64,000 bases of DNA from Candidatus Krumholzibacteriota bacterium (GTDB taxonomy: Bacteria; Krumholzibacteriota; Krumholzibacteriia; JAJRXK01). The DNA is taken from NCBI GenBank assembly GCA_029262065.1, contig JAJDAC010000015.1, forward strand, positions 62,001 to 126,000. The letters run 5' to 3'. The translations under genes were made by a program, and so were the position numbers. Below are positions 11,162 to 53,233 of the stretch, one piece after another. The notes below the pieces were generated by a model. It was not told where the DNA came from and did no database searches. It saw only the letters and a program-made list of their open reading frames with translations. Every line of letters begins with the position of its first letter. The first letter of the stretch is position 1.

Positions 11162-14049
11162 TACCGACGCGTGATCGGGGCAGACTTTGCCTTGGCATCA
11201 CCGGGATGCGACAAGCCCAGGTTCACATCAAGGGAACCACTGTAGTCGACCGAACCCGACGTGGTGCAGAACGGATCATCGTCACCACACACGTGCTCGA
11301 CCGTGGCGTGGTTGCTTGCACGCACGGACAGACGGTATTCTCTGTCGGGCGCAAGCTGACCACTGGCGCTGATTGACGAACACGGATTCTCATCGAAGTC
11401 ACACCGAACGTCGGCAAGGTAGATGCTGTAGAACGGCGTGGATATGGTACCGCTCAGCGTGAATTCAGCGCTCTCGCCCCAGACCTTGAAATCTACTTCG
11501 AAGCCCAAGGTCGAACTCGACCACGCCTGGTAGCCGTAATGGTCGGGGGTTCCGGCGATGCTGGAGCTTCCCTCCAGCAGGAAACTCACGAACGCGCCGG
11601 TCACCTCGTCTCCGTTCTGGACGTAGACATCGGAATTCTGGCGCGCGCGCGCTTGACTGGAGTAGCCGCTCGTGCCGCTGGCGCTGTCCTCGTCGGTAAG
11701 GTCGTGCTGATAGCCACCGGTGAAGTCCTCGAGATCGACTTCTTTGCCGTGGTCGTAGAGGATCGTGAGATTGGAGAACTCGTCGACTGAGTAGCTCGCC
11801 GACACCCATACCTGGGTGTCAGACTCGCGCCCGACGAACACGATGGAGTTGGGACGATGGGCCTCCAGTTCGGTCCGCACCCACTCGCCGCCGGGAAAGC
11901 CGGCCGACACGTCTACGTTCGTGTCGTTCTCGTCATCTTCCAACGTGATCGTCGTCGAGAATGATCCCCCGGCGCCGGTGAGACCCTGTTCCTGAGCGAC
12001 ATTCCCGTCGGACGCGGAAATACGGATGTCGACGCCCTCCACGTAGCTGATCGTCCCACCCGTGTCGATACCGGCGCGCACCTCGATCGTCGTGGCCACC
12101 CCGGGCTCGATCACTTCGGGAAACGTGACCTCGACGAAGGCATTGCTGTGCGTCGACAGCAGAAGCGTGTCGCGCGCGTCGAGATCTCCCTGGTAGAGAT
12201 CGGAGTAGGCGTAATAGCACAGCACGTCGAAATCGCCCGCCGACTGTTCGTCGAGTGTGAGTGGCGTTCCGTTCACGAGGAAAGAGGACACGTCGATCGA
12301 GCCGTTACCGTCGATGTCGAACGGGGCCGCGGCGCCGGGGTTACTCGTGCCATCGCCGTTGAAGTCGTAGCGATCGTGCGGCGATCCGCCACCGCCGCCG
12401 ATCTTGAACGGACTGATCAGGAGCTGGAGGTCGATTTCGTCGAACTTGCCGTTCTGACCGGGAGCTGGCTCCACTCCCGCCACGTCGAAGAGAGTGCGAT
12501 GCACGTCGCCAGTGGCATCGTCGTCGAGCGAGCGTACGGCGGCGTAGGCATCGATCAGCCCGTTCGACGAGCCGCTGCTTACGATGCGGGCAGCGACCTC
12601 GGCCGGCGTGCGATCGACCAGGCTCAACATGTAGGCGGCCAACCCAGAAACCTGGGCCGCGGCCACTCCGCCACCGCCGTACACCGCGACGCTGCCGTCG
12701 CAGAGCGAACCAGGGGCGGCCGAAGGATCGGCCGAGGCACACGGTCCGTGCACACCGACGCCCAGCGCACGCACGTCACCGCCGGCGGAGCCAGGCAACA
12801 ATGAGCCGTCGGCCTGAGCCGGCGCCACCACGAGCACATTGGTACTCGCCGTCGCGCTTCCCGGCACGGCTGCGATCACGCTGGCCCACGCGTCGTCCAG
12901 TGCCGTCTGCTCGGCTACGGCGAGGCCTTCGAAGTCGATGAGATCGCGCACGTCGTCGGCGCGACTCGACGCGATGAACGGAGACTCGAGATCGATGTTG
13001 GCCGCCGATCCGGACGAGGTGACGTGGACGAAGTCGTTGTAGTGCGTGGCCGCGGCCACGCGCCAGGCCAGCGCGTGCAGGGCGCGGTCGAACTCGCTCC
13101 ACACCGCGAAGGTGGGGTCGTTGTAAACGAGGCCGGTATTCAGCACGAATCGATCGCCCGAGCTGGCCAGTTGCCACGAGAGCATGTTGAACAGATCGAA
13201 CCATGTGAGCCCGCCAATGGGCATCGAGACGATGTCGAGCAAGTCGGTGGGCGCGGGACTCGTGCCCGTGACCGGCGTGTCGTCGAAGTTCGCGCCGATG
13301 ATCCCGGAAACCACGAAGCCCTGGTTCCCCGGGTAGATGTCCGGGCCGGGCAGCGATGTCGGTGCGCCGTAGCCCGCCATACTCTGGGCGTCGATCTCGG
13401 TATGCGGAAGCGAACTGGTGTAGAGATCGGGCACGAGCACCGTGATCTCTTCCTGGTTGTCGATGCCCAGGTCGCGCACGTTCCATGCGGCGGGAAACCC
13501 CTGGGCAATGAGGTGACCCATTTCGGGCGACACTCCGCTCTCGGGCAAGATCTTGGCGGCCTCGGTAACAGCTGGTTCGGTGGGTACCGCGCGCGCCGGC
13601 AGCACAGCGATGAATCCCCCGCCCCCCTGGATGGTTGCCGCCAGCGCGGTGGCCTCGGCACGGTCGGCCACCGCCGGAACCTTCAGCGATACGAAGGGAT
13701 TGCCCGCCTGCATCGAAACGATACGAGCCTGCACGGCATCTAGGTTCGCGTTGATCTGGGCGACCGTCGCGCCGGGAGCCAGCAGTCCCAGAAGACGCGT
13801 GGTCAGTACGCCGTCGCGGATGTCCTGCTCATCGGCCGCCGACGGCGGAAGGTCGGTCACCGCATCGGTAGCAAGGTCGGTGGGCTGGCCCGGCAGGAGT
13901 ACGCCTTCGGGGTTGGGTGGCGGCAAATCGCCGGGGCCGGGATCGTCGACGACGGGCGCGGCGGGATCGCCACTTCCGCAGGCAGCGACGAAAAGGATCA
14001 ACAGGAGCGAGAACAGATGCAGTTTGCGGTTCGCAAGACGGTGGCCCAT
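11110..14049 (-). CDS. large lipoprotein with subtilase-like fold lacking catalytic residues
   Basis: 979 residues from the ATG at 14049; a longer open frame exists upstream but runs into a tRNA fragment. The lipobox FVAAC puts the lipidated Cys at residue 24. The first 500 residues follow the subtilase (S8) order, but the key residues are replaced: the His loop reads GNQGFVVSGIIGA, the oxyanion loop VTSSGSAA, and the Ser loop (residues 457-469) YGGGGVAAAQVSG instead of the G-T-S-M-A-x-P-H-V form. TNVLVVAPAQADGSL matches the strand before the Ser loop. A dockerin-like segment (DFNGDG, DIDGNGSID) and a beta-rich C-terminal region follow. I infer an inactive, surface-anchored subtilase relative, perhaps a binding protein. 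Confidence 0.7.
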   Translation of the reverse strand: MGHRLANRKLHLFSLLLILFVAACGSGDPAAPVVDDPGPGDLPPPNPEGVLLPGQPTDLATDAVTDLPPSAADEQDIRDGVLTTRLLGLLAPGATVAQINANLDAVQARIVSMQAGNPFVSLKVPAVADRAEATALAATIQGGGGFIAVLPARAVPTEPAVTEAAKILPESGVSPEMGHLIAQGFPAAWNVRDLGIDNQEEITVLVPDLYTSSLPHTEIDAQSMAGYGAPTSLPGPDIYPGNQGFVVSGIIGANFDDTPVTGTSPAPTDLLDIVSMPIGGLTWFDLFNMLSWQLASSGDRFVLNTGLVYNDPTFAVWSEFDRALHALAWRVAAATHYNDFVHVTSSGSAANIDLESPFIASSRADDVRDLIDFEGLAVAEQTALDDAWASVIAAVPGSATASTNVLVVAPAQADGSLLPGSAGGDVRALGVGVHGPCASADPSAAPGSLCDGSVAVYGGGGVAAAQVSGLAAYMLSLVDRTPAEVAARIVSSGSSNGLIDAYAAVRSLDDDATGDVHRTLFDVAGVEPAPGQNGKFDEIDLQLLISPFKIGGGGGSPHDRYDFNGDGTSNPGAAAPFDIDGNGSIDVSSFLVNGTPLTLDEQSAGDFDVLCYYAYSDLYQGDLDARDTLLLSTHSNAFVEVTFPEVIEPGVATTIEVRAGIDTGGTISYVEGVDIRISASDGNVAQEQGLTGAGGSFSTTITLEDDENDTNVDVSAGFPGGEWVRTELEAHRPNSIVFVGRESDTQVWVSASYSVDEFSNLTILYDHGKEVDLEDFTGGYQHDLTDEDSASGTSGYSSQARARQNSDVYVQNGDEVTGAFVSFLLEGSSSIAGTPDHYGYQAWSSSTLGFEVDFKVWGESAEFTLSGTISTPFYSIYLADVRCDFDENPCSSISASGQLAPDREYRLSVRASNHATVEHVCGDDDPFCTTSGSVDYSGSLDVNLGLSHPGDAKAKSAPITRRYYSSRAASTSRRVISWR

Positions 14050-39674: not shown

Positions 39675-41942
39675 TCAACGAATCTGCAGCCCGGCCTTGG
39701 CCAGCCCCTCGATCAGCTTGTCGGCAATAGATTCCGAAAAGGCGTTGCGTTCGATCAGCTCACGGCGAAGCGTGCCGATGTCGAGGCCGTCGCAGCCCGC
39801 CTTTTGGCACAGCTCCTTCCACAGCACGCGCAGCTCGTCGAGCGCGGGCGCAGCCTCATCGATGCGTCCGAGCTGTCCCAACGTGGCTGCGAGGAACAGA
39901 GGTTCGCGGAAATCATCGGAACCGATGACGCCGTTCTTGGAATGAACGAGCGCCTGCTCGTATCGGCCATGGACGTAGTGATCCACGAACAGCGGAAAAT
40001 CGGCAAAGACTGGAGGATGCGGGACCAGTTCGATCGCCCGGTTGGCCATCGGAACCGCCGTCTCGAACTCTCCCTGCAAGACCAGGTAGTTGGACAGCAG
40101 CGTGAGCACGATCGGATTGTTCGGATTGAGCTCGACGGCGCGACGCATCTCGGCGATTCCGCGCTCGCCATCTCCGGAGAAAAGAGCCGCCATCCCCAGA
40201 TACGCGTGGGCCAGTTGGTTGCTGTCGTCGAGTGACACCGCCCGCTCGGCCACGCGCAGCGCGCGCACGCGGGAATCGTACTCGCCATCCGGCTCGTTCC
40301 AGCGGTGGTGGAACTGGTCGACATAGAGGTAGGCCAGCCACGCGAGACCCTCGACGTAGTCGGGCTCGGCCTCGATTACGCGCTCGAGGCAGTCGCGGGC
40401 CGCCAAATGGGTCTCGGACGAGTGGTTCTGCAAGTAGTCGTAGGCCCGGAAGACGCAATCCCAGCTATCGAGACTCGCCGGAGGCTTGCGCCGTGCACTC
40501 GGCAGCTCGGCACGGGCCAGAGCTCCGTACGATCCCGCGATCTCACCGACGACGTGCTGTGTCAGCTCGTCCTGGAGGTCGAAGAGGTCCCGCGCGGTCT
40601 GTTCGCTTTCGAACGTATTACCCCAGACCGAACGGCCGTCGCGGCCGTCAAAAAGCTGCACGTTGACGCGGATGCGGTCGGGCGACGACTGCACGCGCCC
40701 CTGCAGCACGTAGCGCACGCCGATCTCCCTGCCGATCTCGCGAATGTCGACGTTCTCCCCCTCGCACGGCCCCGATCTGCACGGCATCACCGCCAGTTCG
40801 CCATAGCGAGAAAGCTCCGTCACGATTTCGCCGGTCAGCCCTTCGCTGAAGTAACGCTGCTGCGGGTCACCGCCAGCATCGGCGAACGGCAGTACGGCAA
40901 TCTTGAGGCCGGAGATCACGGGTTCCGTATTGAGGGGACGCGAGTCGTCGCCTTCAGTGCCACCTCTCCACAACTGCCAGACGCCCAGGGCGCTCAAGAG
41001 CAAGACAGAGGTAGCAACGAGCACGCGCCGACCACGTCGTGACGAGCGACGCGCCACCAGAACGGCCTGGCCCGACGCCGTCGAGCCACGCCGCAACCGC
41101 TGTAGGTCCGCGGCCAGGCCGGCGGCGCTCTGGTAGCGCAGCGCGGGATCCTTTTCGAGCGCCTTGTTGACGATACGCTCCAGCTCGACGGGCACCTGCG
41201 CGTTGAGCTGCACCGGCGCCGTCGGCGCCCGGTTGAGGATCGCGTCGAACACTGCGGCAGACGTCTTGCCGCCGAACGGGCGACGGCCAGTGATCATCTC
41301 GTACAGCACCACCCCGAGCGAGAACACATCCGTGCGCGCGTCGAGCGGTTTCCCCAATGCTTGCTCGGGAGACATGTAGGACACGGTGCCCATGACAGAG
41401 CCGGGACTCGTGACGTGGAGGGAGCGTGTCGCTTCGTCGGACCCAGGCTTCCCCTCCGGGCCGGCCGACAGTTTGGCGAGGCCGAAGTCGAGCACCTTGG
41501 CCTGCCCGCGATCGGTCACGAAGATGTTGGCCGGCTTGATGTCGCGGTGCACGATTCCCTTGGCGTGCGCCGCATCGAGTGCGTCGGCGATCTGGATCGC
41601 GAGTTCGATTGCGGTGTCTACCTCGGGCGGACCGTCTCGGACGCGTTCGTCCAGCCCGCTGCCCTCGAGCAACTCCATCACGATGAACCGCCGGCCGTCC
41701 CATTCTCCGATGTCGTGGATCGTGCAGATGTTGGGGTGGTTCAACGCCGAGGCGGCGCGTGCCTCGCGTAGATGGCGGTCGACCGCATCGGTGTTCAGGG
41801 TGTCGGCCTCGGGCACGAACTTCAGGGCGACATGGCGGTGGAGTCGAGCGTCCTCGGCTTTCCAGACGACACCCATGCCGCCCTCGCCGATCTTGCCGAT
41901 GAGGCGGTAGTGCAGTACGTGCTGTCCGGTCTCGATGGCCAC
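39675..41942 (-). CDS. membrane Ser/Thr protein kinase with TolB-like and TPR region
   Basis: 755 residues from a GTG start at 41942. The kinase domain (about residues 10-275) has the P-loop [13 protein letters not shown] with the ATP-binding Lys, [10 protein letters not shown] with H132 and D134, DFGLAKL with D152 and [10 protein letters not shown]. One membrane segment ([19 protein letters not shown]) follows near residue 310. The outer part has a TolB-like N-terminal domain ([40 protein letters not shown]) as in CadC/adenylate-cyclase-type proteins and then TPR-like repeats ([40 protein letters not shown]). All catalytic residues look intact. Role: transmembrane signalling; partners unknown. 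Confidence 0.88.
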
Positions 41943-42048: not shown

Positions 42049-45000
42049 CTACGCCACAACCCGGGTTCGTTCGCCGCCCCAACGCGAGAACAGTACAGGA
42101 ACGAGCACCAGGTTGAGGAACGTCGACGTAAGGAGGCCACCCAGAATCACCTGCCCCATCGGAGATTGGATCTCGTTTCCCGCCTTGTGGCCCGCGAGCA
42201 CCAGCGGTACCAGAGCCAGACCGGCCGTAAGGGCGGTCATGAGCACGGGGGCCAAGCGCTCCTCGGAGCCACGACGCACGGCTTCGATCAACTCGACTCC
42301 CTCTTGCATCAGATCCTGATAGCGTGTCACGAGCAGCACACCATTTCGGGTAGCGATCCCGAACAGCGTGATGAACCCAACGAGGGCAGCGATGCTCAGC
42401 ACGCCCTCGCCCAACGCCACGGCGACGATTCCACCGATGAGAGCGAGTGGCAAATTGACGAGAACGATCAGCGTGTAGCGATGATTTCGGAAGGCCAAGA
42501 ACAGAGCTGCGTACATTCCAACAAGGACAAGAACGGCAAGCATGGAAATATTGCGTGCGCTTCGCGCTCCCTCTTCGAACTGACCTCCGTAGTTGACACG
42601 ATACCCCACGGGAAAGTCCACCCCCTGTTCCACCGCCAGACGAGCTCGATCAACCGTTCCCGCCAGATCCGCGCCTTCGATGTTGGCTGTCAGCATTCCG
42701 ACTCTCTGCACATCTTCACGGCGAATCAAACTGGGACCGAGATCAAATCGTACAACCGCCAGGTCACTTAGCTGCAGTACCCGGCCCACATCCGTCACTA
42801 CGGGTAGCTCTTGCAGCATGTCACGGTGTTCCCGAAGTCTCTCGGGCAGTCGAACCACGACCCGCGAGACCACGCCATTGTCGACAATTTCTCCTACCGT
42901 CGTGCCTTGGAATGCGGACTCGACGTAGCGGGACAAATCCGCCGCGCTCAGGCCGTGGCGCGCGAGGGCCGGACGGTCGAAGTCGATGAGCAGTTGAGGA
43001 ATGCTCGCCTGCTCCTGATTGCTGAGATCGACGATTCCAGGAACCGCTCCCACGATCTCTTCGATACGCTCGCTGAGGCCACGGATCACCGAAAGCTCCG
43101 GCCCAAAAACCTTGATCGCAAGGTTGGACTTGCTGCCGGAAATCATGTGGTCAATTCGATGGCTGATCGGCTGACCAAAACTGACCTCAACTCCGGGTAT
43201 CATCGCGACCGCATCGCGCATGCCGGGAAGGAACTTCGTCTTGTCAGAGCCTTCCCGCAGGACGACTTCCATTTCTGACGCGTTTACTCCCTGCACATGT
43301 TCGTCCTTCTCGGCACGTCCTGTGCGGCGGCTCGTGGAAATCACCTCGGGGAAGGCCAGAAGCGCCTCCTCGACTTCTCTTCCGGCAACGTCGCTTTCTT
43401 CCAGGGTGATGCCCGGAGGGCTCACGACCGCTACCGTCAATGATCCCTCGTTGAACGTGGGCAGGAAGCTTCGACCGAGGAAGGGTAGAAGCGCGAAGGC
43501 ACCGATCACCATGGCAACGCTGATGCCGATCACGAGGCCAGGTCGCGCGAGGGCCCGAGCCAGGGCGCGGTGATAGAACCCTCCGAGCCCTCGCATGAGC
43601 CACGATTCGCGGGGCTTCGACAACGCCACCTTGCGAAGCATGATATAGGAGAGCGCCGGCGTGACCGTGACCGACACCAGGAGCGATGCACCCAGGGAAA
43701 CGAGATAGGCGAAGCCCAGCGGCTTCAAGAGTCTGCCTTCCATGCCCGGCAGGAAGAACAGCGGAACGAACACGAGCACGATGATCAGCGTCGCGAAAAA
43801 GATGGCGCCCAAGACGCTCGAGGCCGCTTGATAGACGATGTCCAGGGCTCGCTTGTCATCTTCTGTCTTGGCCTCCTTCAAGCGACGAAACACGTTCTCA
43901 ACCACGATGATCGCATCGTCCACCAGGGCGCCGATGGCGATGGTGAACCCACCAAGGGTCATGGTGTTCATCGTGCCGCCGAATGCTGAGATTACGAGCA
44001 CGCCTGTGATCAGTGAGAGCGGGATGGCCACGGCGGATATGAAAGTCGTTCGAAGGTCTCCGAGGAACAGGAAGAGAATCAAAATCACCAGCACGGCACC
44101 GTCCCGCAGGGCCACGGTGATGTTGTGAATGGCCGTCCGAATGAAGTTGGACTGACGGAAATTCTCGCGTTCGATGGTTACGCCCGCAGGAAGTGTGCGC
44201 CCGACTTCGTCGAGGACGGCGTCGACCCGCTTCATCAGCTCCAGCGTGTTCGCCCCGGGTTGCTTCTGGACACTGAGGATAACGGCCGGAGCAGCGTTGT
44301 ACGAAGCGATCCCTCGCTGCGGCTCTGCGCCCAGCTCCACCTTTGCCAGATCGCCCACCGTGAGCGGCACGCCGTCGACGACGCGTACGACCGCTGACTT
44401 CAGATCCTCCGGATCCACGGCGCGTGCCAACCCGCGTACCAGATATTCCTGGCCGCGGTCGACATGGAACCCCGCCGCAGGATTGCGCGTGACCTCCCCG
44501 AGAACATCGGCGACTTCCCCGATACTCACGCCGTGCTGGACGAGAGAGGGTACGTCGACCTCGACCTGGTATTCCCGAACGTCGCCGCCAATGGGGCTGA
44601 CCTGTGAAATTCCGGGAATGGCCAGTAGAGATCTACGCACCCCGGTTTCCGCCAGGCGCCTCAGTTCCATCTGATCAACGGTCCCGTCCGCGGTGAGCGC
44701 GACGAAGGTGATCTCGCCCATGATCGAGCTGATGGGACCGAGCTCAGGCGGCGCAACTTGGGAAGGCAGGGTGACCTTTTGGATGCGTTCCGCCACGACC
44801 TGCCGAGCGCGATAGATGTCTTCACCCCAATCGAATTCCCCCCAGATCACGGAGATGCCCGCGGCCGACACAGAGCGCACGCGGCGAATTCCCGGTGCGC
44901 CGTTCAACGCGGACTCGAGCGGGAAGGTCACCAGGAGTTCGATCTCTTCCGGCGCCATCCCCGGCCCCTCGGTGATGACGGTTACCGTGGGAGCCGACAG

Positions 45001-45123
45001 ATCTGGAAAAACGTCGACCGGCACACGAGTGATCCAGATGGAACCCGCGACGAGCAAGAGTCCGGCGAGCGCCAAGATGAACACCCGATGATGCAGAGAA
45101 AGTCCGATGAGTCGTTGCAGCAT
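42049..45123 (-). CDS. CusA/CzcA-type heavy-metal RND efflux pump
   Basis: 1024 residues from the ATG at 45123, 14 bp after the membrane-fusion gene; a longer open frame overlaps that gene and is less likely. The sequence is a full-length RND inner-membrane pump: it starts LIGLSLHHRVFILALAG, has the periplasmic parts, and carries the HME-RND signature IGALVDDAIIVVENVFRRL with the paired Asp in the fourth membrane helix. A second set of 6 membrane segments follows (GMYAALFLAFRNHRYTLIVL). Pumps of this class export Cu/Ag or Zn/Co/Cd; I cannot tell which. It is the last gene of a BlaI-M56-CusCBA operon. Confidence 0.92.
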   Translation of the reverse strand: MLQRLIGLSLHHRVFILALAGLLLVAGSIWITRVPVDVFPDLSAPTVTVITEGPGMAPEEIELLVTFPLESALNGAPGIRRVRSVSAAGISVIWGEFDWGEDIYRARQVVAERIQKVTLPSQVAPPELGPISSIMGEITFVALTADGTVDQMELRRLAETGVRRSLLAIPGISQVSPIGGDVREYQVEVDVPSLVQHGVSIGEVADVLGEVTRNPAAGFHVDRGQEYLVRGLARAVDPEDLKSAVVRVVDGVPLTVGDLAKVELGAEPQRGIASYNAAPAVILSVQKQPGANTLELMKRVDAVLDEVGRTLPAGVTIERENFRQSNFIRTAIHNITVALRDGAVLVILILFLFLGDLRTTFISAVAIPLSLITGVLVISAFGGTMNTMTLGGFTIAIGALVDDAIIVVENVFRRLKEAKTEDDKRALDIVYQAASSVLGAIFFATLIIVLVFVPLFFLPGMEGRLLKPLGFAYLVSLGASLLVSVTVTPALSYIMLRKVALSKPRESWLMRGLGGFYHRALARALARPGLVIGISVAMVIGAFALLPFLGRSFLPTFNEGSLTVAVVSPPGITLEESDVAGREVEEALLAFPEVISTSRRTGRAEKDEHVQGVNASEMEVVLREGSDKTKFLPGMRDAVAMIPGVEVSFGQPISHRIDHMISGSKSNLAIKVFGPELSVIRGLSERIEEIVGAVPGIVDLSNQEQASIPQLLIDFDRPALARHGLSAADLSRYVESAFQGTTVGEIVDNGVVSRVVVRLPERLREHRDMLQELPVVTDVGRVLQLSDLAVVRFDLGPSLIRREDVQRVGMLTANIEGADLAGTVDRARLAVEQGVDFPVGYRVNYGGQFEEGARSARNISMLAVLVLVGMYAALFLAFRNHRYTLIVLVNLPLALIGGIVAVALGEGVLSIAALVGFITLFGIATRNGVLLVTRYQDLMQEGVELIEAVRRGSEERLAPVLMTALTAGLALVPLVLAGHKAGNEIQSPMGQVILGGLLTSTFLNLVLVPVLFSRWGGERTRVVA

Positions 45124-45136
45124 TGACTTTCCGCTC

Positions 45137-46696
45137 CTAGTGGGCGTGACCGTGGCCCGCGCCACCTGAGCTAATGAGTGAGGCCCGGCGGATTGCGGGG
45201 CCGCCAGCGGTCACCAAGCGCTCCGCGACGCTGAGACCGGCGACCAGCACGCTATCGCCCTCGCGCCCGAGGATTGAAATCTCCCGACGCTCGAAGCTCT
45301 CGCCATCGAGCTGGACGAAGACCGTGGGAACTCCGGCGTCATCGACGATGGCCGAGCTGGAAATCACGATGCCAGCATGGGCTTCGGTCAGCAGGACTTC
45401 GGCCTCCACGGCGTGGCCGATGCGCAGACGATCCGAACCGGTGGTAACCTGAAGCAGACAGGTGACGCGGCCGGTGCGTGTAGTCACCTCCGGAGAGATC
45501 GACACCAGGCGAACCTGCCCGTCTTGAAACAAACGGCGTTCCTGGGCGCCCGTCGTGCGAATCCACAATCCTGAAACGCCGGCCTCCAGGCGGGATGCGT
45601 CGGCGGGCGACAAGTACACCTCGACCCAGACCGGCTCCACCCTCACCAGACGCACGAGAGGATCGCCGGCTGAGACCGCCTGCCCGGGACGAACGAGAAC
45701 CTCCGCGACTTCGCCCGAGAACGGCGCGGTCACTTCCAGAAGTGCCGACCGCGGACCCGAACCACTCCCAGAGCCTCGCACCGATGCCATCTGGCGGCGT
45801 GCCGAATCGCTCTGCGCCTCCAGGGTCTGGACTCGCGCGCGCGCGGCGTCGAATTCGGCCTGGCTGACGGCGCCCACCTCGAGCAGTCCTTCCAGCCGTA
45901 CGAATCGGTCGCGAGCCAAACCCAGCTCCGCCTTCTTCTCGGTTTCCACCGCCTGCAATTGAGCCAGCGTCTGGCCTTGCGCCACGCGAGTGCTGAAAGC
46001 GAGGACTGCGTCTCCCGCATTTCGAGAAAGACCTACATATGGCCATGGATCGGCCGCCACGATTCCATCGATGGGTGCCGCCAGTTGGAGTTCGCCACCA
46101 CTGGCCGGGCGCACCAAGCCTGTCCCCCGTGCGCTCTCGCGAATCTCACCCTCGGCGACCCACGCCGTAGAGAAACGTGTCTTCCACTGTTGTTCCTTGA
46201 GAAAGGAAACCGCTTCACCCGCCGGCGCCGCGTCATCGTTTTCTGCCAGCCCGCCCGGAGACTCATTGGTCCCCACGCGAACGCGTCCCGACAAGATCTC
46301 TTCCGTCTTACCTGCGCCAGCCACACGAAACAACAAATCGTACTCGCCACTCGATGCGGGCGTGATCGCAATGTCAAAGATGCCGCCGCGCAACGCTTGG
46401 TCCTTCGTAAACACCTGCTCACGCCCCCCGGGCTCCCGGAGCACGGCCGAGACAACGCCCTCGGTCAAGGCGCTGAAATCGCTGAGCACGGTCACGTGGG
46501 TATGCGAGTTCACCGTTTCGCCAGCGATGAGAGGATCTGCCTCGGCGAAGATCTCGAAATCATTGCCCCACGAAGTCACGGCCCAACTCTCTTCTCCACC
46601 GTGGTCATCTTCCTGAATGGAGGGCCCTCCCACCTGGCAGGCGCCCATAAGAAAAACGGCCGTGAGCCCGAGCAGAATCTTGCAGGATCTCGTCAT
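45137..46696 (-). CDS. CusB/CzcB-type periplasmic membrane-fusion lipoprotein
   Basis: 519 residues with a lipobox (LMGAC, Cys about residue 20). The first about 150 residues of the mature chain form an extra beta domain (FEIFAEADPLIAGETVNSHT, with H-T-H) seen in some metal-efflux adaptors. The adaptor core follows: a biotinyl-lipoyl-like strand, a coiled hairpin (AVETEKKAELGLARDRFVRL) and barrel parts (VTAPFSGEVAEVLVRPGQAV). The C-terminus ends in GHGHAH, a potential metal-binding tail. Its start overlaps the stop of the CusC-like gene (ATGA). The pump gene follows after 13 bases. Confidence 0.88.
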   Translation of the reverse strand: MTRSCKILLGLTAVFLMGACQVGGPSIQEDDHGGEESWAVTSWGNDFEIFAEADPLIAGETVNSHTHVTVLSDFSALTEGVVSAVLREPGGREQVFTKDQALRGGIFDIAITPASSGEYDLLFRVAGAGKTEEILSGRVRVGTNESPGGLAENDDAAPAGEAVSFLKEQQWKTRFSTAWVAEGEIRESARGTGLVRPASGGELQLAAPIDGIVAADPWPYVGLSRNAGDAVLAFSTRVAQGQTLAQLQAVETEKKAELGLARDRFVRLEGLLEVGAVSQAEFDAARARVQTLEAQSDSARRQMASVRGSGSGSGPRSALLEVTAPFSGEVAEVLVRPGQAVSAGDPLVRLVRVEPVWVEVYLSPADASRLEAGVSGLWIRTTGAQERRLFQDGQVRLVSISPEVTTRTGRVTCLLQVTTGSDRLRIGHAVEAEVLLTEAHAGIVISSSAIVDDAGVPTVFVQLDGESFERREISILGREGDSVLVAGLSVAERLVTAGGPAIRRASLISSGGAGHGHAH

Positions 46697-47943
46697 CGTG
46701 AATCTCCTTGGGTCAACACACGGCCGATGCTCAGCTCCAGATCTCGATGGGCCGCCAGGGCTTCCGCTCTGAGTTCCAGGGCCGAAAGCTGACTGTCCAA
46801 GACGGAGCGAAGGGTCTCAAGTAGATCGGTCATGCTGCTCTCTCCGGCCAAGAATGTGGCTCCGGCCGCCGTCGCAATCTCCGGCGCATCTTCCACGGCC
46901 GCCTCGACGGCAAACCAGCTATCGCGCAGTGCGGTGTAGGAAGTCAAAGCTGCCGCACTCCGCTGCTCTGCCTCCCGCTCGGTCAAATCCAGTCTTGCTT
47001 TTTGAGTCGCAAGAAGCCGCGAGTACTCATGTCGATCGCCTTGATTGCGATCGAAAACTGGAACATCCCACGACAATCCGAAGTAGGGCCCGTCGAAATC
47101 CCCGGCGTCGTCACCGATTCGTGTCCAGCCAAACTCCAGGGTCGGAAACTCGAGAACGCGACCGGCCAAACGGCGACGGAGCTCCGTCGCCTCCACGCCG
47201 CTGCGTTGTGCGAGCAGGTCTGGACGAACGGAATCTTCGAGCAATTGCGGGACCCTGGGCAGTTCGGAGAGCACGGGCATCGCGCCCGGCGGCAGATCGG
47301 CTCGTGCGGTCAGCGCGTTTCCACGCGCGCGGGCCAGGTCAGATTCTGCATACGCCAACTCCCCCCGCAGCTCAGCCATAGCCAGCCGGAAGCGACGGGC
47401 AGTCAGCTGCGACTCTTCGCCACGCGCCGCGCGCACTGTCAGCCGTCGGTCGAGGGCTGCAAGGCTCTCGAAGTGTGCGGCGATCAAAGACCGACGTTGC
47501 TGCGCCACGGCCCAACGCGTGTGAACCTCCCGAAACTGCTGTCGTAGGTCGAGCTGCGCCCATTCCAGATTCTGGTTCGCGGCTTCGACGGAAGCCTCGG
47601 TAGCATCCACCGCCAGGCCACGTCGGCCATCCAACGGCGGCCGCCAGCTGAGTTTGAGAGTGCCTTGCGCAGCCTGATTCGATGGCGCTTCGCGCTCGAA
47701 CGCGATCGTCGGATTCTCGAGCGCGCCGGCACGTCGACGCTCGGCTTCTGCGCGACCGAGTTCTTCTGTCAGCGCGACAACCGCCGGATGCGTCGGCCCA
47801 AGTGGGGCGAGAAACTCTTCCTCGCTGACGGCGACGACTTCCTGCGCGCGGGAAGAAGCACTGAGCAAACCAAAGAGAGCCCCGCCGAGCATCAGCCTGG
47901 CTACGGCGCCGTAACACCGACCCAGTATCGGTTTTCTTGCCAC
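46693..47943 (-). CDS. CusC/CzcC-type TolC-like outer-membrane channel
   Basis: 416 residues from a GTG at 47943, chosen because GAGGGGA lies upstream; the frame is open to 48036, but that would overlap the upstream gene. Signal peptide AVARLMLGGALFGLLSASSR. The mature part is two long helical repeats (NPTIAFEREAPSNQAAQ, ELRGELAYAESDLARARGNA, SMTDLLETLRSVLDSQLSAL) of the outer-membrane efflux family. It has the tandem-repeat layout of TolC-like trimers. Cotranscribed with the adaptor (overlap ATGA) and the pump. Confidence 0.88.
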   Translation of the reverse strand: MARKPILGRCYGAVARLMLGGALFGLLSASSRAQEVVAVSEEEFLAPLGPTHPAVVALTEELGRAEAERRRAGALENPTIAFEREAPSNQAAQGTLKLSWRPPLDGRRGLAVDATEASVEAANQNLEWAQLDLRQQFREVHTRWAVAQQRRSLIAAHFESLAALDRRLTVRAARGEESQLTARRFRLAMAELRGELAYAESDLARARGNALTARADLPPGAMPVLSELPRVPQLLEDSVRPDLLAQRSGVEATELRRRLAGRVLEFPTLEFGWTRIGDDAGDFDGPYFGLSWDVPVFDRNQGDRHEYSRLLATQKARLDLTEREAEQRSAAALTSYTALRDSWFAVEAAVEDAPEIATAAGATFLAGESSMTDLLETLRSVLDSQLSALELRAEALAAHRDLELSIGRVLTQGDSR

Positions 47944-47980
47944 GAATACTTCCCCTCGAGTCATGAACCGCGATTCCGTC

Positions 47981-48973
47981 TCAACCCAGAATGTGATGAA
48001 GCAGGGTTTCGGTGAGATGATGCAAAGGATCCGCAAGCGCCGCCGCCGCGGCGCAGCCTAGAAACAACGCCACCATCTTGGTGCCTCGGCTCCACCGGCT
48101 GCCGGGCGATGCGGCCAGGAGCGACTCGACGCGGGCGGAGACGCCATGCGCGTTGAAGGCGAGGGCGGCGGGACCAAACCCCGCCACGTCGTGGCGAATT
48201 CGTTCCATCCTGACGAGCGCCTCGGCAACACGAAACCGATCACCAATGCTGGCTCCTGCGTCTTCGTCGCAGGCCTGCTCGCAGGCAAGCTCGAGATCGA
48301 GATCAAGAATCCGGCGCACGCGCGGCAGATGTCCCAGCGACAGAAGTCTCGTCGCGCCTCGCCACAGTCCGTCGCTCCTACGCGCATGGGCGTTTTCGTG
48401 GGCAACGATCGCTGCGACCAGATGGGTAGGAATGCCACTCAGCAAACCCGACGACAATACGGTTCGTTTCTCCAGCAATCCCACCGAGATGGCAACGGGA
48501 TGGTCCGACTCGACAACCCACGCGTCGTATCGGGGATCGAATTGCGCGGTCTTCGCAAGCTGCCGAACGAGCTGGCGGGAAGCGTGGAAGCGAAGGCTCC
48601 TTACGAGGCCTACCACCAGGGTCGCGATCGCCGCGGAAGTCACGACCATCCAGAACACGGTTCCGCCGATCGCATGCGGTGGATGATTCAGACAAAAATG
48701 AATATGGCTGTCAGTATGGGCAGTGCAATGGTCGATGCGAGGAAGGCCGGGAAAGACCATCCCAAGGATCTTTGGGGCGAAGCAAAGGGCGGTGGCAAAA
48801 AGGCCGCCCACGAGAGGCGCGACTGACACAGCACGAAGCGCCACGGCACGCGTTCTCGGATCCAACGATCGGAGCGATGCGCGAAGCACGGGATAGATCG
48901 CGCCGATCCCAAGCGATATGACCGCAAGGAAGAGCACCCACGCCAACATGCCCAACTGGAAGAGCCCCATCAA
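47981..48973 (-). CDS. M56 (BlaR1-like) membrane metallopeptidase with His/Cys-rich loop
   Basis: 330 residues with several membrane segments (residues about 3-30, 50-75, 104-126 and near the C-terminus, about 297-317). HENAH at 191-195 is the zinc-binding motif of M56 peptidases, and E231 in C-E-Q-A-C-D-E-D-A is the likely third ligand. A loop between the second and third segments, residues 82-100, contains H82, C83, H86, H90, H92, C94, H97 and H100, which is unusual and looks metal-binding. M56 proteins such as BlaR1 sense a ligand outside and cleave the cognate BlaI repressor inside. There is no penicillin-binding domain, and the operon encodes a metal-type pump, so I infer metal sensing. 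Overlaps the repressor gene by ATGA. Confidence 0.82.
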   Translation of the reverse strand: MMGLFQLGMLAWVLFLAVISLGIGAIYPVLRASLRSLDPRTRAVALRAVSVAPLVGGLFATALCFAPKILGMVFPGLPRIDHCTAHTDSHIHFCLNHPPHAIGGTVFWMVVTSAAIATLVVGLVRSLRFHASRQLVRQLAKTAQFDPRYDAWVVESDHPVAISVGLLEKRTVLSSGLLSGIPTHLVAAIVAHENAHARRSDGLWRGATRLLSLGHLPRVRRILDLDLELACEQACDEDAGASIGDRFRVAEALVRMERIRHDVAGFGPAALAFNAHGVSARVESLLAASPGSRWSRGTKMVALFLGCAAAAALADPLHHLTETLLHHILG

Positions 48974-49380
48974 GATTTGCCCTCCGAATCCCTGCGGTCC
49001 TTGAGTCGCTCTTCGATGAGGCCTTCCAACTGCTCGAGTTGCTCCGGTCCGACCTGTTCGGCCACGCCGATGAAGGCCGAAAGCATGGCGTCCGGCTGGC
49101 CACCCATGACCCGGTCGACAACTTCCTGCAAGGCCTGGCGGTGAAACTCAGCTCGCGTCATCCGGGGAGAATACACGTGTGCGTGGCTCACCTTTTCGCG
49201 CTGAAGAAGGCCCTTCTCGAAAAGTCGCTTCAACGTTGATTGGATCGTGTTGAGCGTGATGCGCCGACTACGCCCCACCTTCTGGTGAACGGCTTTGGCG
49301 TCCTTGCCACCGCTGGACCACAGATGATCCATGACGGCAAGTTCAAGATCGCCCAGAAAGGGCGGTCGCGCGGGTTTCAT
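48970..49380 (-). CDS. BlaI/MecI-family transcriptional repressor
   Basis: 136 residues from the ATG at 49380 (AAGGATACCC upstream); an upstream in-frame extension has no good site. The N-terminal winged helix (LGDLELAVMDHLWSSGGKD, ITLNTIQSTLKRLFEKGLLQ) and the C-terminal dimerisation helices match BlaI/MecI. It has no cysteine, so it cannot sense copper in the CopY manner. It is the first gene of an operon with the M56 protein and a CusCBA-type efflux system. A perfect palindrome over the -35 box upstream is the probable operator. In this family the repressor is inactivated by cleavage by the M56 partner; here that is inference. Confidence 0.87.
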   Translation of the reverse strand: MKPARPPFLGDLELAVMDHLWSSGGKDAKAVHQKVGRSRRITLNTIQSTLKRLFEKGLLQREKVSHAHVYSPRMTRAEFHRQALQEVVDRVMGGQPDAMLSAFIGVAEQVGPEQLEQLEGLIEERLKDRRDSEGKS

Positions 49381-49435
49381 CGGGTATCCTTCCCAGGCAC
49401 ACGGCCCCAGGCACACGGGTCGTTGTGGAGCGCCC

Positions 49436-49470
49436 AAGCTAGAGTCCAAAAAACCGATTGTCAATCGGTT
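49436..49470 (-). promoter_or_regulatory. promoter and palindromic operator of the BlaI-M56-CusCBA operon
   Basis: On the minus strand TTGACA (49464-49459) and TAGCTT (49441-49436) are spaced 17 bp, about 50 bp before the BlaI start. The -35 box lies in the perfect 19-bp palindrome AACCGATTG-A-CAATCGGTT (49452-49470). A repressor bound there would block RNA polymerase. The sequence differs from the TACA/TGTA boxes of classic BlaI operators. Confidence 0.78.
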
Positions 49471-49694: not shown

Positions 49695-50240
49695 ATGGCC
49701 GGCCGATTCCTGCCCCTCGTTTTCTTGATTCTGCTGGCTCCGGGGACGACCGATATCCCCGCCCCAGCGCACGAATCCGCGTCAGCTCAGACCGTCGCTC
49801 CGGTCGACCTCCGATCGTCCTGCACACAGAGCCAGATGTACCCGCTCGAAGTGACGGTGCGTCTGCTCGAAGAGCTGGTGCCCGGGCGCTGGGTCACCGC
49901 CGAGGTCTCGGTTCACGGCGCCGTGAGTCTTGACCGGCTGAGCCTCGAGATCTCCGCCGTCCGAGACGTAGCCATCTCGGGCATGAAGCGCGTGGATTTC
50001 GGACCATTGCCGAGCGGTAAGAAGGTTAGCCACACACTAAAGCTTCGTGTTGGTGACACCCCCGAGCAACGACAGCTCGCAGTGGTGGCCACGGGAATCG
50101 CCGAGGGCAGGACGCTGCGGCGCGGCGCATCGCTTAACATCCTGCCCCACGGCCCCCATCATCCGGCCGTGGCAAGCCCGGTCTCCAAAAAGGGCCACGA
50201 GGTCATGGAGTACCCCGGTGCCGCGAGGAGGTTACGATGA
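49695..50240 (+). CDS. small secreted protein preceding a metallopeptidase
   Basis: 181 residues from the ATG at 49695, with GGAGG at 49683; the frame is open upstream to 49635. Signal peptide AGRFLPLVFLILLAPGTTDI. The mature part is beta-rich (YPLEVTVRLLEELVPGRW, VTAEVSVHGAVSLDRLSLEI) and looks like an Ig-like domain. No family recognised. The stop overlaps the start of the metallopeptidase gene (ATGA), so the two are translationally coupled; it may be a chaperone, inhibitor or partner for that protein, which is only a guess. Confidence 0.72.
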   Translation: MAGRFLPLVFLILLAPGTTDIPAPAHESASAQTVAPVDLRSSCTQSQMYPLEVTVRLLEELVPGRWVTAEVSVHGAVSLDRLSLEISAVRDVAISGMKRVDFGPLPSGKKVSHTLKLRVGDTPEQRQLAVVATGIAEGRTLRRGASLNILPHGPHHPAVASPVSKKGHEVMEYPGAARRLR

Positions 50241-53233
50241 CCGCCCGACTCCGCATCTCGACCTTCGTGGTCCTCGCCGCGGCGGTCCTGCTGACGACGG
50301 TTCCGGTGGACCGGGCCGATGCCCAGACCCTGATCTCTTTCTGGACCCTCAACGGAAACATCGACAGCAGCGTGCCGCAGACGGCGATACTCCACGACCC
50401 CAACGTCACCGTGAGCACACTCGCCTCCACTGGGCTCGTAACCGGCGTTCATCTCAATGCGTTCATGGCCGACGGTTGGCCATCAGGACCGTTTGACCCC
50501 AGCGCATACTTCGAGTACACCGTCACGCCCAACGCAAACTTCGAGGTGACGTACATCAGCATGCAGTTCTCGTTGTACAACGACTCGGCGGGCACCTCCA
50601 CGTGGGACGTGCGGTCCAGCGTGGACGGCTTCGCCAACACCATCGCCAGCGGCACCACGTCGGTGCTCACCGGCGCGGGCGCGCTCATCCAGGCGTTTCT
50701 CCCCGGAGTGGGCACACAGACCGTACCGGTGACCTTCCGCGTGTACACACACACCAACTCCGGCGCCGCCAACCCTCAGCAGAGAGGCCTTCGCGGGTCC
50801 GCGGCTGGCGGCACGGGCCTCAGGATCAACGGCAGCGTTACTGCGAGTCCGCTCCCCTTCGTCGTTTCGGGTCGCTTCCTCTACGAGGACCGCATGTGGG
50901 ACAAGGATGGGCACACCGGCGCCGTGCAGAACCTCCCCATCCGCCACGCCGATGTAGAAATCGTCGACGCCAACGGAGACGTGGTGGTGAGCGAGGGCTC
51001 CACCGACGTCAACGGCGACTTCGCCATCGAAACGGCGCTCACGGGTACCGTGGATCTCTACGCGCGCGTGCTCACCAACACTGAAAACAACAGCACGTAC
51101 CAGCTGGTCGTCAACGGCGGGGCGAACTCGATAAACAATCCCTTGTTCATACACGCGGTTCCCACCGACGTCGTGCTCGGCCACGCCGCTGGCACGCCGC
51201 TGGATCTGGGAACCTATTTGATCGCCGACACCGACGGCACCGGTGTAGCCCAGGCGTTCAACATCCTCGACCGCGCCATTGACGGAACGGACTGGCTTGC
51301 CCAGCCGGAGGCACGAGGCTCCTACCCCGGGCTGGGGGTGTCGTTTCGATGGGGACCCGTCGAGAGCCAGTCAGGATCATTCTATGTCTCGTCTGGAGGC
51401 CGCGTCATCACCATTGCGTCTCCGGGCTCCGGCGACACCGACGGTTGGAGCGACGCGGTCATTCTCCACGAGTTCGGCCACTACGTGATCGACATCTCCC
51501 ATCAGGACGACAGTCCGGGCGGGCCGCATTTCCTGGGCGACAACCTGCAGAACCCGCTGCTGAGTTACGCCGAGGGCTACGCCACGTACTTCTGCGCAGA
51601 AGCGCGGGAGTTCACCGCGTTCACCGCGGGCACCGACGATCACGTGACCATCTACGCCGACATGGACATCCCTCCCCCAGTGGGCACGCCGGGAGGCCTG
51701 GGCTTCGGCTACGACTTCGAAACCGGAACCTTCAGCGACGGAACCCCCATCAGCCAGCTTGGGCAGGCCAACGAGTCCAACGTCACCTCTGCCATGTGGG
51801 ACCTCACAGACGGCCCCTCCACGCCGGACGAAAGCCCGGGCGTGGACGACGACTCACTCGACGGCGACGGCACCGACGTATGGGCCGTGTTGTCGGGCTA
51901 CATGGCGACATTGCCGTTCGAAGAATCCATCAGCTTCGAAGATTTCGTGCAGGGGTGGAAAAGCATCCACGGCCCAACCTACTTTTCGGCCGAGCTCGAC
52001 GAGATCCTCAATGACATCAACTCCATGGGCTTCGAGCCCGATATCCACGAGCCCGACGACGAGATCGCCGCGGTGGCAACCATTGTCGTGGGAAGCTTTG
52101 ACCTGGTGGGTCCAAGCGGTGGCGTGGTGATCAACGAGATAAACGTAAGCTCCACGGACGGCGTAGAACTGTACAACAGTTCCGATGTCACCGTGGACAT
52201 CGGCCTGTACCAGGTGGTCTGCACCGCTGATACATGGCCGACGACCACCTACACCTTCGCCCCGTCGTTTCCGTTGGCTCCGGGGAGCAGGGTGTACATC
52301 CACGAAAGGAGCGATCCGGCCAACGACTCGGCCAACGACGTCTATCTCCCAGAGAACATCTATTTTGACTACGAGCAACCCGGCGCTTGCGCTCTTCTGG
52401 ACGACGCCGGTGTGGCCATCGACTTCGTGCGCTTCGACGGTGTGGGGAATCCGACCGCCACCCCGGTGCCACCGGGGACTGTGTTCACCGGAAGCCTGGC
52501 GAGCCCTCCCGTAAGCCGCGTACTGGGTCGTGACAGTATGGGCACCGACACCGACGATGCCTCCGACTTCACCGTGCAGAACCCCAGCGGCGGCGTGCCG
52601 AACCTCATGCCGGTCCAGGCCAGGACCTTCTTCGATACGGGGGACGTGGACGAAGTGGGGGTACCCATGCTGGGCGGAAAAACCTACGTCCTGCGTACGC
52701 TCGACCTGTTCGGTGGCGGGAACAGCAACATGGTGCTTCTGGACACGGATAAGTTCACCGTGCTCGACACCAATGACGACCGCGCCCCGGGAGTTCTGGA
52801 GTCCATGATCACGTACACGGCGCCGCAGACGGGGTTGTACTACGCGCGCCTCACCCATGTGGGCACGCTCACCGACTACGGAATGTACAACTTGTTGGTG
52901 TACGCCCTACCCCAGTCGCCCACGGCCATCAACGACCCGGAGTTGCCAGCGCCGAGAGTTACCGAGCTTCGGGGGACCTATCCCAACCCCTTCAATCCTC
53001 GACTCACCGTGGCGTTCGAACTGGACCGCGAGCGACCCGTCTCCATCAAAGCGTACGATGCGCGGGGTCGGCTGGTGCGACACGTTCTCGAAGAGGCACG
53101 TCCGCCTGGTGACCACACCGTGGTGTGGGACGGAAAGGATGACAGCGGCCTCGAAGTGGCCGGGGGCGTGTACTTCCTGCGCTTCGAGTCGGAGGATGTG
53201 AAGCGCACCACCAAGGTGACGCTGGTGAAATGA
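50237..53233 (+). CDS. secreted metallopeptidase with lamin-tail-like and sorting-type domains
   Basis: 998 residues with a signal peptide (VVLAAAVLLTTVPVDRADA). HEFGH at residues 411-415, with E446 in S-Y-A-E-G-Y-A about 30 residues on, gives a gluzincin-type zinc site. A beta domain precedes it (VVSGRFLYEDRMWDKDGHTG, with an Ig-like carrier), and a lamin-tail-like module (GGVVINEINVSSTDGVELYN) lies after the catalytic region. The C-terminus (TYPNPFNPRLTVAFEL to VTLVK) is a FlgD-like sorting domain. The catalytic core layout parallels that of the protein at 4096-8553, so the two are probably related. It ends 19 bp before the convergent NDH-2 stop. Confidence 0.82.
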   Translation: MTARLRISTFVVLAAAVLLTTVPVDRADAQTLISFWTLNGNIDSSVPQTAILHDPNVTVSTLASTGLVTGVHLNAFMADGWPSGPFDPSAYFEYTVTPNANFEVTYISMQFSLYNDSAGTSTWDVRSSVDGFANTIASGTTSVLTGAGALIQAFLPGVGTQTVPVTFRVYTHTNSGAANPQQRGLRGSAAGGTGLRINGSVTASPLPFVVSGRFLYEDRMWDKDGHTGAVQNLPIRHADVEIVDANGDVVVSEGSTDVNGDFAIETALTGTVDLYARVLTNTENNSTYQLVVNGGANSINNPLFIHAVPTDVVLGHAAGTPLDLGTYLIADTDGTGVAQAFNILDRAIDGTDWLAQPEARGSYPGLGVSFRWGPVESQSGSFYVSSGGRVITIASPGSGDTDGWSDAVILHEFGHYVIDISHQDDSPGGPHFLGDNLQNPLLSYAEGYATYFCAEAREFTAFTAGTDDHVTIYADMDIPPPVGTPGGLGFGYDFETGTFSDGTPISQLGQANESNVTSAMWDLTDGPSTPDESPGVDDDSLDGDGTDVWAVLSGYMATLPFEESISFEDFVQGWKSIHGPTYFSAELDEILNDINSMGFEPDIHEPDDEIAAVATIVVGSFDLVGPSGGVVINEINVSSTDGVELYNSSDVTVDIGLYQVVCTADTWPTTTYTFAPSFPLAPGSRVYIHERSDPANDSANDVYLPENIYFDYEQPGACALLDDAGVAIDFVRFDGVGNPTATPVPPGTVFTGSLASPPVSRVLGRDSMGTDTDDASDFTVQNPSGGVPNLMPVQARTFFDTGDVDEVGVPMLGGKTYVLRTLDLFGGGNSNMVLLDTDKFTVLDTNDDRAPGVLESMITYTAPQTGLYYARLTHVGTLTDYGMYNLLVYALPQSPTAINDPELPAPRVTELRGTYPNPFNPRLTVAFELDRERPVSIKAYDARGRLVRHVLEEARPPGDHTVVWDGKDDSGLEVAGGVYFLRFESEDVKRTTKVTLVK

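Follow-up and report, generated by a model that had tools for sequence, protein, structure and literature searches.

At the locus studied in the window (the whole stretch of DNA analysed, 64,000 nucleotides), five genes on the minus strand form one operon, in the order BlaI repressor, BlaR1-like M56 protease, TolC-like channel, adaptor, and CusA/CzcA-family RND pump. A preliminary description of this DNA had given the same five-gene order on one strand, and open reading frame coordinates, gene overlaps, and family profiles confirm it. The features discussed here are listed in the direction of transcription:

49453-49469, minus strand: operator, a perfect palindrome with core ACCGATTG-A-CAATCGGT, extended AATAACCGATTGACAATCGGTTTTT; identified by recurrence upstream of BlaI in >50 loci
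49436-49464, minus strand: promoter, with a -35 box TTGACA (49464-49459) inside the operator, a 17-nt spacer, and a weak -10 box TAGCTT (49441-49436); identified by recurrence
49380-48970, minus strand: BlaI/CopY-family repressor, 136 aa, no Cys, with helix TLNTIQSTLKRL and putative cleavage site SA-F103
48970-47981, minus strand: BlaR1-like (M56/M48-type gluzincin) membrane protease, 329 aa, four predicted membrane helices, no penicillin-binding domain
48674-48730, minus strand: EL1 loop of the protease, H81-H99 (HCTAHTDSHIHFCLNHPPH), with the proposed periplasmic metal site C82/H85/H91/C93/H96; from conservation and composition
48386-48400, minus strand: HExxH (H191-H195), catalytic zinc motif of the protease, with third ligand E231 and with D200, D235, and R280; from the family alignment
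48008-48022, minus strand: HHLTE (H317-E321) just past the last membrane helix of the protease, proposed as the other half of the metal site; from conservation
~47963-46693, minus strand: TolC-like outer-membrane channel (OMF; OEP); from the ORF list and Pfam
46696-45137, minus strand: periplasmic adaptor (RND_mfp / CzcB-CusB type) with a His-rich C-terminus, HAGHGHAH
42049-45165, minus strand: CusA/CzcA-family RND pump without the CusA Met triad; likely start ATG 45123

The BlaI gene starts with ATG behind a GGAAGGA-type ribosome site, the ATG of the protease gene shares one base with the BlaI stop codon, and the channel and adaptor genes are joined by an ATGA overlap. For the pump the ATG at 45123 is the likelier start; the alternative GTG at 45165 would overlap the adaptor gene.

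The repressor belongs to the Penicillinase_R family of Pfam (93.3 bits against a cut-off of 22.6). Its 136-residue translation bears out the earlier remark that it has no Cys. It resembles CopY and TcrY of Firmicutes as a BlaI-fold repressor governing metal export, but CopY holds copper through its own cysteines, whereas here the protease partner is the proposed sensor; the window protein also fails the CopY_TcrY profile TIGR02698 (49 bits, cut-off 122). It shares with BlaI a Phe at the cleavage site. This residue, which follows the bond cut by BlaR1, is present in 85 of 93 BlaI proteins and is general to the whole family.

The protease and its repressor form the kind of pair known from BlaR1/BlaI and MecR1/MecI of S. 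aureus and B. licheniformis, in which the partner is likewise a membrane gluzincin. Residues H201, E202, H205, D210, E242, D246, and R294 of BlaR1 correspond to H191, E192, H195, D200, E231, D235, and R280, which are near-invariant: the HExxH and Asp/Glu/Asp/Arg positions are conserved at 95-100% in the family, with spacing near that of BlaR1. The predicted model has a pLDDT of 87, and BlaR1 entries of the PDB are among its best fold-search matches, with probabilities of 0.94-0.99 at weak E-values (>0.01). The clearest departure from BlaR1 is the missing sensor. No C-terminal penicillin-binding domain (SxxK) was found in the translation, by Pfam, or in the model, and the chain ends ~18 residues past the last membrane helix (295-311), in agreement with the earlier description. 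Pfam scores the protein above the cut-off for M48 (25.2 against 20.3) and below that for M56 (PF05569, 17.2 against 31), an assignment that would suit a general membrane protease (HtpX/M48-like), or a cell-wall antibiotic sensor, placed in the operon by chance while the metal response comes from elsewhere. We regard this as very improbable, given the BlaR1-type Asp/Glu/Asp/Arg residues, the lack of a beta-lactam domain, the overlapping BlaI-M56 gene pairs at most loci, and an operator that goes with the neighbouring BlaI.

Hydropathy, charge bias, and the secondary structure of the model agree in predicting four membrane helices that place EL1 outside and the protease inside. The loop lies between helices 2 and 3 and is predicted to be outside because its mean K+R content is low (0.42) relative to the linkers on either side (3.87 and 3.63). 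This is also the position of EL1 in BlaR1. In the S. aureus BlaR1 structure EL1, a signalling loop, inserts into the sensor domain, and beta-lactam is proposed to displace it; the C-terminus, outside, carries the sensor (PMC9834060). In the window protein, which differs in having no sensor domain, EL1 appears instead to be a His/Cys site. The preliminary description counted eight His and Cys within 19 residues, which is correct, but its residue numbers have to be lowered by one: from the ATG they are H81, C82, H85, H89, H91, C93, H96, and H99. An equally His/Cys-rich window arose in 94 of 100,000 shuffles of the protease sequence.

Conservation was assessed in 97 loop-bearing homologues from Gammaproteobacteria, Mariprofundaceae, Myxococcota, and the window's phylum, most of them ~25-40% identical to the window protein. 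Five loop positions are widely kept (C82.99, H85.78, H91.91, C93.95, H96.87), as are H317 (.99) and E321 (.96) beyond the last helix; the active-site residues H191 (1.0), E192 (.99), and H195 (1.0) serve for comparison. The remaining loop positions are mostly variable and the length of the mid-loop differs, the usual form being DHCxxHxxxHxHLCxxHP. By this alignment the loop is a real and strongly conserved feature, at the level of the catalytic residues, and H317 and E321 probably belong to the same metal site. Among the loop residues the two Cys vary least, and a clade represented by loci L208 and L212 has two Cys without the His in the same gene context. Both observations would fit a version of the same circuit in which the Cys pair forms a structural or redox-active periplasmic disulfide, oxidation or envelope stress serves as the signal, and the His have a secondary role. 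The retention of H85, H91, H96, and H317/E321 at 78-99%, in an operon encoding a pump of a heavy-metal family, makes this unlikely.

The BlaI operator at the window locus (ACCGATTGACnnTCGGT) overlaps the -35 box. Its palindrome upstream of BlaI reads AACCGATTGACAATCGGTT, also given as ACCGATTGACAATCGGT, and the same palindrome stands ~40-135 bp upstream of BlaI in Gammaproteobacteria, Mariprofundaceae, Myxococcota, and the window's phylum. A -10 element (TAnnnT) follows TTGACn mostly at 17 bases, with at least four of six -10 matches in 25 of 56 aligned upstream regions against 5.2 expected. At two mismatches or fewer, the operator occurs at 40 of 63 loop-type loci whose BlaI has an NTxxS helix and at none of 42 loci with an xTTxxT recognition helix, some of which have CTACTACG-type repeats instead; on these counts the operator follows the type of BlaI recognition helix. 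The window genome has no other copy of it, exact or with one mismatch. Whole-genome searches nearly always found it single and at this locus, and a genome-wide search for a regulon beyond the operon gave no convincing second target. The circuit therefore appears to be local and autoregulated. At ~19 loci a second operator site lies between the protease and channel genes.

Close relatives occur in only two of 80 genomes of the window's small phylum. A wider search, combining a scan of 84,980 genomes with profile searches in other phyla, found relatives in 11 of 369 genomes of the gammaproteobacterial class and in 65 of 284 genomes of the phylum of a myxococcotal member, as well as in Mariprofundaceae and one Desulfuromonadales bin. 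A conjugative Pseudomonas aeruginosa plasmid bears an operon of the same composition, so the operon is also a mobile metal-resistance determinant. Gene context was gathered for 145 distinct homologues, a set for which the loop itself was partly the search pattern. BlaI usually stands directly upstream of the loop protein. The preliminary description had proposed counting how often loop proteins neighbour metal exporters. An RND pump lies downstream in 72 of 76 loop proteins, counting those for which a pump was detected or the downstream sequence reached 6.5 kb or more. The four without RND comprise two loci from the myxococcotal phylum and two with a shorter loop, HCHxxxCxxHxP, beside divergent TonB-dependent receptors; no pump was detected downstream of the loop proteins L160 and L193. 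Sampled pumps of loop-type operons pass TIGR00914. Among proteins without the loop, a pump follows in 10 and none in 24, and the loop-less M56 proteins of cyanobacteria and actinobacteria have no RND alongside. These counts reflect few independent changes on the tree, so the association between loop and pump is not statistically independent, and an independent-contrast test was without power for the same reason. The weight of the case, judged from the alignments, rests on loop conservation at deep divergence.

Loop-less homologues in the same operon context, which the preliminary description had named as something that would refute its proposal, do occur: L039 is one, and in L208 and L212 only the Cys pair is left. 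In Desulfobacterota, loop-less homologues in this context have a Cys/His-rich C-terminal tail instead, and a Met-triad pump. The pumps of loop-less operons were considered as non-metal RND transporters because of a lower score against our own profile; this was dropped, as the sampled ones belong to the CusA/CzcA family by NCBIfam.

The window pump passes TIGR00914 for the CusA/CzcA family (722 against a cut-off of 701), and its operon shares the channel-adaptor-pump make-up of CusCBA, CzcCBA, and ZneCAB. Heavy-metal RND systems are usually under the control of two-component systems such as CusRS and CzcRS; in this operon a BlaI-protease pair takes that place. The label "CusCBA-type" given to it earlier is doubtful. 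At the positions of the CusA Met triad (M573/M623/M672) the window pump has A, A, and H, the triad is also absent from other loop-type pumps, and the pump is for that reason not CusA-like at its substrate site; these residues are of neither CusA nor CzcA type. Its best solved relative is ZneA, slightly ahead of CusA. Pumps of loop-type operons fall into an HRIDHM/VDDAII class (44), a CzcA/ZneA type (DFGLIVDG, 12), and a third type (3). The six Met-triad pumps in the set all come from the Desulfobacterota-side phylum searched and all accompany loop-less proteases, whose C-terminal tails are rich in Cys and His, as in DCTMERCETHAELLDDCKTHCSHKGH. Since Met-triad pumps in this set go only with loop-less proteases, a divalent metal is favoured for the window type. 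Copper or silver, in a Cus-like copper defence, would be a sub-case of the same circuit and is quite possible, if short of probable. The studied relative PetP responds to copper, and in the nearest orthologue, G008, a CusF-domain gene, the sole one in its genome, lies 103 bp beyond the pump; set against this are the missing Met triad, the CzcA/ZneA-like character of several loop-type pumps, and the window genome, in which no CusF was found. The evidence on the metal from these sequences remains contradictory, the missing Met triad speaking for Zn/Cd/Co and the CusF-like gene of G008 for Cu/Ag.

Our account of PetP/PetR rests on one commentary and two reviews, which describe Synechocystis PetP as a BlaR1-type protease that degrades the BlaI/CopY-type regulator PetR when copper is present (PMC7896320, PMC10141476, PMC12292863); homologues were noted in other phyla, with role unknown, in a 2023 survey (PMC10141476). 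The window pair is alike in combining a BlaR1-type protease with a BlaI/CopY-family regulator, which in PetP/PetR is degraded in response to metal. It differs in its output, as the PetR regulon comprises petE/petJ (the plastocyanin/cytochrome c6 switch) and no exporter, and PetR activates too. The cyanobacterial M56 homologues in our set, presumably PetP-type, have a shorter EL1 without the Cys/His cluster and a truncated C-terminus, most ending LH-x. They form a separate tree branch, do not have the loop in common with the window type, and lie in a different gene context. A metal-responsive BlaI/BlaR1-type principle is therefore not new, and the window type is a variant of it with a different sensor and output. 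The open-access literature searched yielded neither a BlaI-M56-RND system nor a branch that combines the loop, the link to a pump, and an operator of its own.

A protease that precedes an export operon and bears a conserved His/Cys loop suggests that the operon is probably induced by metal on the loop and destruction of the repressor. We consider a metal-sensing circuit wired like BlaR1/BlaI, with a metal RND pump as output and a different operator, the likely and best explanation of the locus. The earlier proposal of such a circuit is partly upheld, by the loop in the EL1 position, the operon order across phyla, and the catalytic and cleavage-site residues; the principle itself is already published. 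What the sequence shows directly is the operon and its operator, the conserved loop, the catalytic residues, and the gene context. From these we infer metal binding, protease activation, BlaI cleavage, and the kind of metal. Without metal, a BlaI dimer on AACCGATTGACAATCGGTT over the -35 box would repress the whole operon, including its own gene and that of the protease. A soft periplasmic metal ion (Zn/Cd/Co or Cu/Ag) would bind C82, H85, H91, C93, and H96 of EL1, probably joined by H317 and E321, and this site would replace the contact of loop and sensor domain that beta-lactam disturbs in BlaR1. The membrane helices would relay the change to the HExxH protease in the cytoplasm. Once activated, the protease would cut BlaI at its conserved bond between A and Phe103, after which the promoter would open and the RND export system be made.

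On balance we favour the view that these proteins form a class of metal sensors, hitherto undescribed and spread over several phyla, in which a single transmembrane protein signals by proteolysis of the repressor. Their periplasmic site would be modular, consisting of EL1 with the His/Glu after TM4 or, in Desulfobacterota with Met-triad pumps, of a Cys/His-rich tail, and its type would follow the metal class of the pump. With a sharply defined candidate metal site and an operator, the system lends itself to testing, and the joint shift of sensor type and pump type amounts to a natural experiment. Mutation and titration are simpler with a metal site than with a covalent drug sensor, so the system may also help explain how movement of EL1 activates the BlaR1 protease. 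If the proposal is true, such sensors fill the role that two-component systems (CusRS, CzcRS) have elsewhere, and BlaR1-style signalling, so far known for beta-lactams and one cyanobacterial copper switch, would extend to periplasmic metal sensing for heavy-metal efflux in Gram-negative phyla.

Genes near the window operon and features of related loci, which were gathered from other genomes and bear L-numbers:
window 50237-53233, secreted 998-aa protein with a lamin-tail domain, FlgD-Ig and a Por-type C-terminal sorting signal
window 39675-41942, same strand as the pump and directly after it, serine/threonine kinase containing both TolB-like and TPR regions
L130 (nearest relative of the window) 12165-12593, directly 3' of the pump, CusF-domain copper-binding protein
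L034 7508-8936, BlaI-M56 pair whose loop is short (HCHxxxCxxHxP), oriented divergently from a gene for a TonB-dependent receptor
L128 8500-9852, pair and arrangement as in L034

The window genome has no CusF-domain protein, in contrast to L130. In some Myxococcota (L167, L171, L176) the operon ends with small His-rich lipoproteins bearing an HMBD-like motif, WYCDMGTVH...CPxC. A PII-like DUF3240 gene follows the pump in L022 and L196 (assigned via Pfam) and L038 (by eye), and a HupE/UreJ_2 gene follows it in L035.

BlaI-M56-CusA operons also occur with proteases devoid of the His loop in EL1, between membrane helices 2 and 3 (L228, L229, L231, L232 and relatives); these proteases carry a Cys/His-rich C-terminal tail and are accompanied by Met-triad (Cu/Ag) pumps. 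In L034 and L128 the receptor gene takes the place of the pump, and their short-loop pairs possibly control metal or siderophore uptake.

An operon of the same make-up as that of the window is carried by a Pseudomonas aeruginosa conjugative plasmid (L020, CP109756.1), with a plasmid relaxase gene on one side and an IS256-family element on the other. Proteases very like the one encoded there occur in Dyella, Comamonadaceae, Dechloromonas and Stutzerimonas, which suggests recent spread.
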